From: Oscillospiraceae bacterium | Lineage (GTDB): Bacteria; Bacillota; Clostridia; Oscillospirales; Ruminococcaceae | DNA length: 55,243 nucleotides | NCBI GenBank assembly: GCA_017461565.1 | Contig: JAFTXQ010000007.1 | Coordinates: 1-55,243 of the forward strand | Reading direction: 5' to 3' | Shown here: positions 37,185-39,274 of the stretch, piece after piece | How the letters are laid out: each line of letters begins with the position of its first letter | How positions within the stretch are numbered: position 1 is the stretch's first letter | Position numbers and translations under genes: made by a program | The notes under the pieces: model-generated | Database searches by the model: none | What the model was told of the DNA's origin: nothing | What the model saw: the letters and a program-made list of their open reading frames with translations, nothing else

Positions 37185-38153
37185 TCAGTTCAGTATATTT
37201 TTCTTTGTATCATAAAGCATATCGGTATCATACAGCGATATGTTGTATCTCTTTATTGCGTCGCTGATATCGTATGCAAGGTCGTCGGGTATCTCCTCGT
37301 TGTCGATGAAGTTCTCCAGTGCGCTGACGAAATTCTTTCTCAGCAGCATCTTGTCCTTGAGCATCATCTTCATGGGAACACGCTTGCCCGTATCCGCATT
37401 CCTCAGGTCCATGATGTCTGAGTCAAGCAGCCGCATTATATGGGATATGCTGTCACGGCTGTGAGGTCCGAACACAAGCTGATGGTACACGGCAGCCTTG
37501 CACAGCGCTGCCATGTTGAACTCGTCGGGAAGCACCTCGTACACCGACATCAGCGTGAACAGGAACTCCTCGATAGAAGCGTAGTTCTCGGAAAGCCCCA
37601 TGCACATAGTAAGGCTGTCCACGTTCGCCGCCGAAAATTTGATAGCGCTGTCAAGCGCTGTCTTGTACTTGTTCATCGGGCAAATGTCGATAGGGACAGG
37701 CAGTACGCACTTTGCGCCGTATACATATTTGTGCGCCTCTTCCCTGCTCATCATGGAGTAGCTGCCACGCAGCCTTACCATCTCGATGCGCCCCTTCAGC
37801 TGTGCCTGCGCAAGCGAAAGCATCTGCCTTGAAAGCTTGCTCACCGCCGGGAACTCCATAATGATAGGCGTGTTTTTAACCTTTATGCGCTCCTTGAAAT
37901 CATTGATGGTCACAACGGTGTATCTGAAATCGAACACCTCTGTAAGCTCTGCAAACATCGGGTCTCCCAGACGGAAGATATAGTTCACGCCGTCGGGAAG
38001 CTCGTTCATCTTCATCACCGTGCGGAAATCCAGCTCCACATGTTTCACGCCTGCCTCTGCGAGCGCCGATATATAATTGTAGATGTGCTTAGGTATTGCT
38101 GTCTCGCATATCGGAAGCGTGCACAGGCTGTTGTCCGTAATTACAGTTTTCAT
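37185..38153 (-). CDS. TIM-barrel protein resembling HMGL/isopropylmalate-synthase barrels
   Basis: 322 residues. The start (ITDNSLCTLP) and following alternation of hydrophobic strands and helices (VKHVELDFRTV, YIFRLGDP, EMVRLRGSYSMM, VDSLTMCMGLSE) suggest a DRE-TIM-like alpha/beta barrel as in homocitrate or isopropylmalate synthases, but the metal-binding HxH and DTTLRDG motifs are not intact. A CxPM segment (CPMNKY) occurs mid-chain. I cannot name the reaction. It lies 8 bases after the FakA-like mini-gene, so the two are likely co-expressed. Confidence 0.6.
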   Translation of the reverse strand: MKTVITDNSLCTLPICETAIPKHIYNYISALAEAGVKHVELDFRTVMKMNELPDGVNYIFRLGDPMFAELTEVFDFRYTVVTINDFKERIKVKNTPIIMEFPAVSKLSRQMLSLAQAQLKGRIEMVRLRGSYSMMSREEAHKYVYGAKCVLPVPIDICPMNKYKTALDSAIKFSAANVDSLTMCMGLSENYASIEEFLFTLMSVYEVLPDEFNMAALCKAAVYHQLVFGPHSRDSISHIMRLLDSDIMDLRNADTGKRVPMKMMLKDKMLLRKNFVSALENFIDNEEIPDDLAYDISDAIKRYNISLYDTDMLYDTKKNILN

Positions 38154-38161
38154 CGGGTGTT

Positions 38162-38413
38162 TTATCCTTTCAGACCACGTGACTGACGGTCCATATCCTC
38201 TATTACGATATCAAATATCTCGCCGAGCGTTGCGCAGTATTCCAGCAGCTTCCATGGCTCGTTGGTGTGGAAGTGTATCTTAATAAGATCCTCGTCTCCA
38301 ACCGCAAGCAGGCTGTCGCCCTTGAAATTCCCGGTTATGTAGTCGTTTATTGCGTCCTCGTCAAGGCCTTCGCCCTCAATGAGAAGCTGTGTATCATAGC
38401 GGTATTCAAGCAT
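38162..38413 (-). CDS. Stand-alone FakA/DAK C-terminal-domain mini-protein
   Basis: 83 residues. The sequence from YRYDTQLLIEG through GDSLLAVGDEDLIKIHFHTN, PWKLLEYCATLGEI and IEDMDRQ closely follows the extreme C-terminal domain of FakA-type (DhaL-like) fatty acid kinases, where it reads GDSLVVVGDDDLVKVHVHT... The kinase and middle domains are absent, and no adjacent frame restores them, so this is not a simple truncation by frameshift in the window. AGGAG precedes the ATG and a good promoter lies upstream, so it is a real gene. First gene of a six-gene operon. Confidence 0.75.
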   Translation of the reverse strand: MLEYRYDTQLLIEGEGLDEDAINDYITGNFKGDSLLAVGDEDLIKIHFHTNEPWKLLEYCATLGEIFDIVIEDMDRQSRGLKG

Positions 38414-38459
38414 TTTGTTATCTCCTTTATAATATAGCTGAGCTTATCTGCGCCAGCAT

Positions 38460-38488
38460 TATATACGATCAGACTCCGCAGATGTCAA
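38460..38488 (-). promoter_or_regulatory. Promoter of the six-gene nadA operon
   Basis: Minus strand TTGACA (38488-38483), 17 bases, TATATA (38465-38460), 47 bases before the first ATG. Confidence 0.75.
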
Positions 38489-38520
38489 AACTCCGATCCG
38501 TACGGCGATTTTTTCGGTTT

Positions 38521-39193
38521 CGCACTGCGAAAGCAACGGCGCTCCGCCGTTGAAGAAAATATTGCAAGGTGGTTCGGTCGGCAACGCCGAGCGAAACACA
38601 CTGCCGTTTGTCTGCGCCAGCAGACGATAGGATATGTTTCAATAAATTCGGCGCAAAAGCGATAGCTTTTGGAACAAGCCAAATTTATTATACCAAGAAA
38701 GCAAATGCGAAGCATTTGAGTGCCGACAGGCACAGACGGCGAATGCCGTCCTTTCTGCCATTCAATAAATTCGGCGCAAAAGCGATAGCTTTTGAAGTAA
38801 GCCAAATTTATTATACCAAGAAAGCAAACACGAAGTGTTTGTTAACGGCGACAGCCGTTGTCTGCAAAGCAGACCTTTCTGCCGTTCAATAAAAACAGCG
38901 CAATTGCGCAGCAATTGAAGCAAGCTGTTTTTATTATAATATATCCGCAGAGCGGCAGCTCTGCAAAACGGCGACAGCCGTTTGTCTGCGCCAGCAGACG
39001 ATAGGATATGTTTCAATAAATTTGGCGCAAAAGCGATAGCTTTTGGAACAAGCCAAATTTATTATACTAGGAAAGCAAATGCGAAGCATTTGAGTGCCGA
39101 CAGGCACAGACGGCGAATGCCGTCCTTTCTGCCGTTCAATAAATTCGGCGCAAAAGCGATAGCTTTTGGAACAAGCCAAATTTATTATACCAC
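38521..39193. repeat. Array of covarying hairpin (A) and cloverleaf (B) modules
   Basis: Five A modules (38641-38689, 38764-38812, 38888-38935, 39015-39063, 39138-39186) alternate with B modules (38696-38756, 38819-38880, 38941-39009, 39071-39129), with a truncated B at 38602-38636 and decayed hairpins at 38521-38600. A: a 12-bp outer stem, a 7-bp inner hairpin and a fixed asymmetric internal loop (G / GAACAA-like). B: three short hairpins inside a 5-6-bp closing stem. Stem sequences change between copies while pairing is kept. Repeat periods are 123, 124, 127 and 123 bases. Open frames across it are by-products. Confidence 0.9.
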
Positions 39194-39274
39194 ACTCCTC
39201 CCCAATATTCAAGCGGTAACTATTGCCCTTTAGTTCATTCCTAATAAAAAAATCAAAAAATTCAGTTTACCCCC

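Follow-up and report, generated by a model that had tools for sequence, protein, structure and literature searches.

In the window (the whole 55,243-nt stretch of DNA analysed here), an array of alternating structured modules is built from copies of a small mobile DNA element that uncultured gut bacteria carry. The repeat unit is a B module followed by an A module and is bounded by ATTATA, and the end of the array is a host promoter, a feature that the preliminary description of this DNA missed. We consider it probable that the element is non-autonomous, enters the -10 boxes of promoters and is moved, probably as folded single-stranded DNA, by an enzyme acting in trans.

Layout of the array

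Reading out the sequence confirmed nine complete alternating modules, five A and four B within 38638–39189, with the stems, loops and module order originally given (Table 1); successive A modules start 123, 124, 127 and 123 nt apart. Two points of the preliminary description were revised. The A stems do swap letters as it claimed but do not all pair perfectly: three of the four AATAAATT-type stems in the window hold one mismatch because one arm reads TTCGGC. The array, whose left limit had been placed at 38521, reaches further left, to about 38458, where an eroded unit of a long B type is fused to the first A module. Copies related to this long B form occur at three other loci of the same genome (L003, L004, L005). 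Within the array, unit 39070–39192 is 96% identical to unit 38696–38818.

The array is flanked by a minus-strand gene for an 83-aa protein with a FakA-like domain on one side and by a plus-strand DAHP synthase gene on the other; the latter has, by eye, its own promoter-like TTGACA-N17-TATACT. Adjoining the FakA-like gene, the minus strand at 37188–38153 encodes a 322-aa protein that has DNA matches in several relatives and no Pfam match at E 0.001.

Table 1 Features of the array and of its surroundings in the window
Feature	Position	Strand	Remark
Gene behind the array, 83-aa FakA-like middle-domain protein	38162..38413	-	
Promoter-like TTGACA (38483-38488) N17 TATATA (38460-38465), gene-proximal end of array	38460..38488	-	consensus match only
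Gene-proximal left unit, eroded long B type	38458..38637	+	chimeric with last hairpin and closing arm of B3
A module 1, AATAAATTCGGC/GCCAAATTTATT, inner CAAAAGC-gata-GCTTTTG	38638..38692	+	starts with TTCAATAA, as do all A modules; closing ATTATA at 38687
B module, type B1, AGAAAG/CTTTCT, three hairpins	38693..38760	+	
A module 2	38761..38815	+	closing ATTATA at 38810
B module, B2 of the preliminary description	38816..38884	+	closing stem as B1, different hairpins
A module 3, AATAAAAACAGC/GCTGTTTTTATT, inner CAATTGC-gca-GCAATTG	38885..38938	+	closing ATTATA at 38933
B module, type B3, ATATCC/GGATAT	38939..39011	+	
A module 4	39012..39066	+	closing ATTATA at 39061
B module, type B1, second copy	39067..39134	+	
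A module 5	39135..39189	+	closing ATTATA at 39184 is the -10 box (TATAAT) of the minus-strand promoter
-10 box TATAAT, extended TGG	39184..39189	-	17 nt from -35 box
-35 box TTGAAT	39207..39212	-	promoter reads leftward into array

Fold, covariation and module exchange

A 686-nt stretch folds far below its shuffled versions, both as RNA (z -13.5) and as DNA (z -13.7), with 0 of 20 shuffles reaching it in each case. The compensatory stem changes first noticed in the window extend to an alignment of 36 units from several genomes, in which the covariation score for the named structure is 0.397 vs 0.138 in shuffles (0/500) and falls to 0.06–0.11 when the partner is slid by one to three columns. 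Twelve of 48 units were excluded from this alignment as long-B, partial or near-duplicate, and some of its B3 pairs are out of register because it was made by sequence. Covariation also exceeds shuffles and slid controls in a second alignment, of the two-cloverleaf form; the structure used there came from folding those very sequences and has an advantage for that reason. The number of further pair types is not above shuffles; it was reached by 170 of 500 for the 36 units and by 465 of 500 for the second alignment.

Structure is thus kept while sequence changes, and modules are recombined: B types (GAAAG/CTTTC, TGACC/GGTCA and AACATATCC/GGATATGTT) and A types (including AATAAATTTGGC, AATAAAAACAGC and AATAAACAC) are found in several combinations. 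Distant members (G014, G017, G048, G049, G405, G398) display the full plan of two domains, each with a closing stem and three hairpins; in the clade of the window the second domain has shrunk to a single hairpin with a one-sided loop. At a site shared by G009 and G024 (77% identity), the two genomes agree in promoter spacer and A hairpin; each of the three B hairpins has changed its letters, as has the closing stem, and all still pair. This may be one insertion with a swapped B module, or two insertions.

Distribution of the family

The many scattered copies expected of a mobile element were found: blastn gave 18 matches in the genome of the window, the window included. Across genomes, BLAST matches occur in 8 of 41, again counting the genome of the window, and some are to flanking sequence alone. 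The covariance-model check proposed for the array was carried out with a model built from 36 units (R1), which gave 21 hits in the same genome (G000), 28 in G008, 18 in G044, 11 in G043 and 6 in G046; hits occur in 17 of the 43 genomes of the genus. At the level of the order, R1 hits 7 of 394 genomes and a model of the two-cloverleaf form (R2) hits 10 of 394, the genome of the window being included in both counts; absence at this level means little because the searches scored only 7–8 candidates per genome. Among the order-level hits, L200, L201 and the g20 genomes inspected look like clear members. L205, a weak hit, does not look like one, and L204 (G080) was rejected as it looks like a plain palindrome. 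Similar copies stand at separate loci of G405 with 92–96% identity. A pattern scan of named genomes returned 17 stretches from metagenome-assembled genomes titled Oscillospiraceae or uncultured Clostridia, two of which are titled as deer gut. A link to phages was considered and dropped: 13 viral-contig stretches match the patterns, none with the hairpins of the element.

The suggestion that no named element has this plan agrees with Rfam searches, in which no relevant family matched at gathering or relaxed thresholds. At the gathering cut-off, the window yielded only a tRNA, located elsewhere in it, and the best weak hit of the relaxed search scored 16.5 bits against a cut-off of 48. A literature search of partial coverage brought up nothing recognisable to us as the present element.

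Position at host promoters

When the outer ends of the arrays are read on the minus strand, a -35 box, a spacer and a -10 box become visible. In the window, TTGAAT-17 nt-TATAAT points into the array, toward the gene at 38413. From 66 arrays, 60 have a readable ATTATA end, and five of these were set aside as continuing arrays or because of N, leaving 55 outer ends, of which several abut another unit or an inverted remnant (L010–L012, L024, L111, L128) and three (L010–L012) look like one orthologous site. TTG stands exactly 17 nt upstream of TATAAT in 33 of the 55, compared with three at spacer 18, none at spacer 16 and no more than four at each of the other spacers between 10 and 25; 19 ends have no TTG at spacers 16–18. 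The extended -10 TG is present in 50. A likely start codon, assigned by a simple rule, lies on the other side in 63 of the 66 arrays, in 27 of them 25–70 nt from the element.

Two arrangements depart from this pattern. A copy of a variant family, L100 (G003:C98, 1501–1744), has TTGACA-N17-TATAAT at its left side on the + strand and seems to be inserted in the opposite orientation relative to the promoter. At the outer ends of L010–L012 (G004, G012, G015) and L111 (G046), an inverted ATTATACCATAACC...GGTTATGGTATAAT-like hairpin takes the place of the -35 region and adjoins a common CGTATCGGAC sequence; it is perhaps a remnant of another related element.

Filled and unfilled orthologous sites

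For prmA, a DUF1858 gene and a transglycosylase gene, 30 loci each (90 in total) were searched with both models. The prmA gene (Pfam PrmA) was found in 41 of 43 genomes, in two of them only as a fragment or through a weak match to a paralogue. Its promoter is filled in one of 29 readable loci, that of G000 alone (L235 starts inside the gene and is unreadable), and in 27 of the 29 a spacer of exactly 17 nt separates a -35-like box from TATAAT. The nearest relatives (G043, G008, G044), whose proteins are 95–96% identical, are unfilled and read TTGATT-N17-TATAAT; next comes the leader found in G000 after the inner TATAAT. These relatives have TAG before TATAAT and both copies in G000 have TGG; the doubled stretch is therefore not simply the TGNTATAAT of the relatives.

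The DUF1858 gene (PF08984), present in all 43 genomes, is filled in 2 of the 30 loci read (G024, G009), and 28 of the 30 have a -35-like box 17 nt from TATAAT. The transglycosylase gene (PF00912), whose product is by eye a class A penicillin-binding protein, is filled in 3 of 30 (G048, G043, G017), and under a strict pattern 20 of 30 have such a 17-nt-spaced promoter. The G043 site is filled by another element type, and the G017 site by a deleted copy, detected by R2 only and then by eye. In this copy (L198, G017:C1, 1051–1163), the A hairpin is fused to B hairpins and TGTTATAAT stands at both ends. For the window gene, the sole comparable relative, L032 (G044), has TTGATA-N17-TGCTATAAT in the place of the array; no comparable promoter was seen in the other relatives examined.

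Comparison of these orthologous sequences thus shows insertion at promoters, and absence in relatives could in some cases be loss. TATAAT stands on both sides of the element and ATTATA is doubled in filled sites; the doubled TATAAT could be a copy of the target or an end of the element.

Other genes behind elements encode a class II tRNA synthetase, a pseudouridine synthase, a carbohydrate phosphorylase, a gyrase-B-type protein, a sodium/calcium exchanger and an AAA ATPase. As these genes are diverse and unrelated, no regulon is seen, and that reading was set aside.

Element ends and central box

Terminal inverted repeats were not detected in 19 elements (6.9 matches of 14, vs 6.7 in shuffles), one of which (L113) had its left end misread. 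The base N in ATTATANCA is the same at both ends in 39 of 53 rows (shuffles 18.9; 0/5000), 10 of 63 rows having been excluded for an unreadable left motif. In 30 of 31 units centred on TGN'T..AAT (TG type), the left N has its complement in N' (shuffles 17.8, best 26); the pairs are A-T 22, T-A 6, C-G 2 and T-T 1, where the 31 units were picked by their centre and are not independent (27 loci, several related). The right N is unlike the left N in 12 of the 31. Given that the left N is paired with the centre and is not always matched by the right N, we assign the left NCA to the element in the TG type; a target duplication that includes base N is weakened accordingly, and the doubled part in this type is probably just ATTATA, the -10 hexamer.

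In CCG-centred units, which make up most copies in the clade of the window, no such pairing links the centre to the left end. All 36 units of the first alignment pair the AAT of their centre with the ATT at the right end, and the adjacent pair is A-T in 31 of 34 and G-T in 3 of 34.

Loop types and strand polarity

On the + strand, 120 of 219 distinct hairpins have DNA-type loops (cGNAg 51, cGNNAg 57, cGNABg 12), where relatives by descent were counted apart if they differed at all; on the minus strand the same loops occur in 0 of 219. Control hairpins elsewhere in the same loci, the window excepted, have them in 8 of 692 on one strand and in 11 of 692 on the other. GNAB loops, too, fall within the rule for stable DNA hairpins. 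GNA and GNNA loops on G-C stems are described as making DNA hairpins exceptionally stable, with GCGAAGC melting near 78 °C (PMC4686876).

The RNA GNRA rule is not followed, because the third place of cGNNAg loops is a pyrimidine in 39 of 57 and a purine in 18. Neither strand favours wobble, as G-T (44/1511) is no commoner than A-C (45/1551). Mismatches revealed no asymmetry that would assign a strand polarity; the commonest is G-A (71/1584). The foot of the A stem, AAT, lies within TATAAT, so that it shares bases with the -10 box and a transcript from that promoter would start after it.

Search for a mobilizing enzyme

No match to Y1 transposase (PF01797) was found in G000, G043, G048, G049, G009, G024, G405 or G201, of which G048, G405 and G201 are listed as 99–100% complete and some other Y1-negative carriers are incomplete. 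Y1 matches occur in 9 of 43 members of the genus and were seen in G150, G417, G008, G044, G046 and G015. A Y1 transposase was rejected as the partner of the element, being present in some carriers and matched in none of the others. Five Y1 loci (L078, L079, L080, L082, L085) hold, by eye, no unit of the cloverleaf family. The single-contig genome G150, which carries the element, has on G150:C1 seven closely similar intact IS200-type transposase genes (L281, L283, L284 and others). Among the copies inspected, none was noticed to enclose a gene that would make it autonomous.

Proposed mechanism and alternatives

Comparison of copies and loci shows that one unit comprises a B cloverleaf, the central box (...TTCAATAA in the clade of the window) and an A domain, with ATTATA as its bounds on the + strand. 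With few departures from a single orientation, units occupy the -10 hexamer of sigma70-type promoters whose host genes are unrelated. With TATAAT on both sides, the host -35 box, 17-nt spacer and -10 box stay in register upstream and a second -10-like box adjoins the gene. Further copies join head to tail, mostly at ATTATA. In the mechanism that we propose, the element would move as the folded single-stranded + strand, the template strand of the promoter, and its stable + strand hairpins would be what a mobilizing enzyme, supplied in trans, reads. The central box, pairing with the right end (AAT/ATT) and, in TG-type units, with the left end too, would hold the ends together and may help in target choice. 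The -10 box would be favoured as a target for its AT-richness and for its single-stranded state in open promoter complexes. Stem turnover would result from selection on the fold together with the exchange of complete A and B modules among copies. We infer single-stranded movement, guide pairing and open-complex targeting from sequence patterns. The doubled TATAAT counts against this mechanism in that it resembles an ordinary target duplication of a double-strand mechanism, and selection against insertions elsewhere could mimic promoter targeting.

A more specific version can be offered only tentatively, and we hold it to be rather unlikely: the element would home to promoters as single-stranded DNA, its central box serving as its own DNA guide that pairs with the -10 box in the open complex, and insertion there would double the hexamer, leaving a promoter box at either end. 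If true, this would amount to a route of transposition in which open transcription complexes are recognised through base pairing; should such complexes be the target, transcription initiation would be linked to transposition. Exact landing on the -10 box with the promoter kept in register would be an unusual lifestyle for a parasite in gene-dense genomes, and the element adds a structured leader to the genes that it enters.

Insertion might instead occur at any TTATANCA, with purifying selection leaving the copies that preserve a promoter. This account is compatible with mobility and overlaps the mechanism above; it draws on the frequency of TTATACCA in G000 (58 forward and 46 reverse sites vs 39 and 45 for the reversed pattern) and on the expected loss of insertions into genes, and nothing decisive speaks against it, as promoter preservation fits both readings. 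We would still call it somewhat unlikely. An ordinary MITE-like double-stranded element, moved by a DDE transposase with an AT-rich preference and duplicating ~6 bp, would make the hairpins incidental or regulatory. TATAAT on both sides and the agreement of the base next to ATTATA in 39 of 53 rows suit such an element, and ISCth4 is described as having an A/T-rich 8-bp target preference (PMC7780238). We nonetheless judge it unlikely given the lack of terminal inverted repeats, the 12 of 31 TG-type units in which that base differs between the ends, the nearly fixed orientation with head-to-tail arrays, and the restriction of the DNA loop rule to one strand. In another account, a tyrosine recombinase would act on cassette-like units at a short common core, ATTATA; this would explain head-to-tail arrays behind a promoter with one short joint per unit, as well as a folded strand of conserved shape. 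Integrons offer a precedent in that their attC sites recombine as folded DNA. The units here are without cargo, however, and we give this explanation little credence.

The preliminary description had offered mobile structured DNA and a structured non-coding RNA side by side; the former is supported and the latter less so. As a 5' leader, such an RNA would fold within the transcript from the upstream promoter and control or stabilize the mRNA. The element does lie between promoter and gene in nearly fixed orientation, its stems covary, and most of the fold would be in the transcript. We nevertheless find a leader RNA very improbable, because the downstream genes are unrelated and have no common function, most orthologues read have no element at the promoter, the GNA, GNNA and GNAB loops lie on the strand that a transcript from this promoter would not carry and in none of 219 hairpins on the other, the pyrimidines in the third place of cGNNAg loops go against GNRA, G-T is not favoured, and the -10 box shares bases with the foot of the A stem. 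Covariation by itself, this case warns, is not proof of RNA, and stem turnover with kept folds lends itself naturally to testing selection on DNA secondary structure.

Relationship to known mobile elements

We place the element among small non-autonomous bacterial mobile elements, akin in its working to REP/IS200-type hairpin elements and to MITEs. Like REP/BIME sequences (TnpA-REP, RAYT), it consists of small non-coding palindromic repeats that would be read as single-stranded DNA hairpins (PMC8266576). It differs from their one hairpin by its two cloverleaves, its location at promoter -10 boxes and the lack of a Y1 match in several carriers. Non-autonomous derivatives of IS200/IS605 (IS608) are folded single strands in fixed orientation to a short target, with internal guide bases that pair with their ends (PMC5934647). 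The element would share the folded strand and the orientation, and its single internal box, which pairs with the right end and in TG-type units also with the left, is reminiscent of such guide bases. It differs in having the target hexamer on both sides, three-hairpin cloverleaves and one central box for both ends, and in that no Y1 match was found in the carriers G000, G048 and G405. Bacterial MITEs (RUP, Correia, YPAL/RU-2 and others) are <200 bp, non-coding and intergenic and have a target duplication (PMC2229807); the element resembles them in the first three respects and may do so in the fourth. Unlike them, it stands at the promoter -10 hexamer, exchanges modules with compensatory stems and lacks terminal inverted repeats. 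A Y1 gene was sought and not found in several carrier genomes, and terminal repeats were not found in the 19 elements compared, which sets the element apart from IS200/IS605 and from MITEs.

Mitochondrial double-hairpin elements and other organelle palindromes are mobile hairpins as well. They are organellar, whereas the element here is bacterial and has a six-hairpin plan and a promoter target. BOX elements of Streptococcus pneumoniae are likewise modular repeats, and the number of their internal modules varies; on this general description the element can be set beside them, and we know of no promoter-box target for BOX.

Other repeats occur at similar places. In two relatives, different large inverted repeats (L047, L048) take the same intergenic position upstream of the orthologue of the window gene. 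Further palindromic repeats lie between promoter and gene upstream of DUF1858 (L150 and L152, the ends of the latter being GGGCACCTCTAAAAACC) and of prmA (L240). The leaders of the genus may be a common landing place for repeats.
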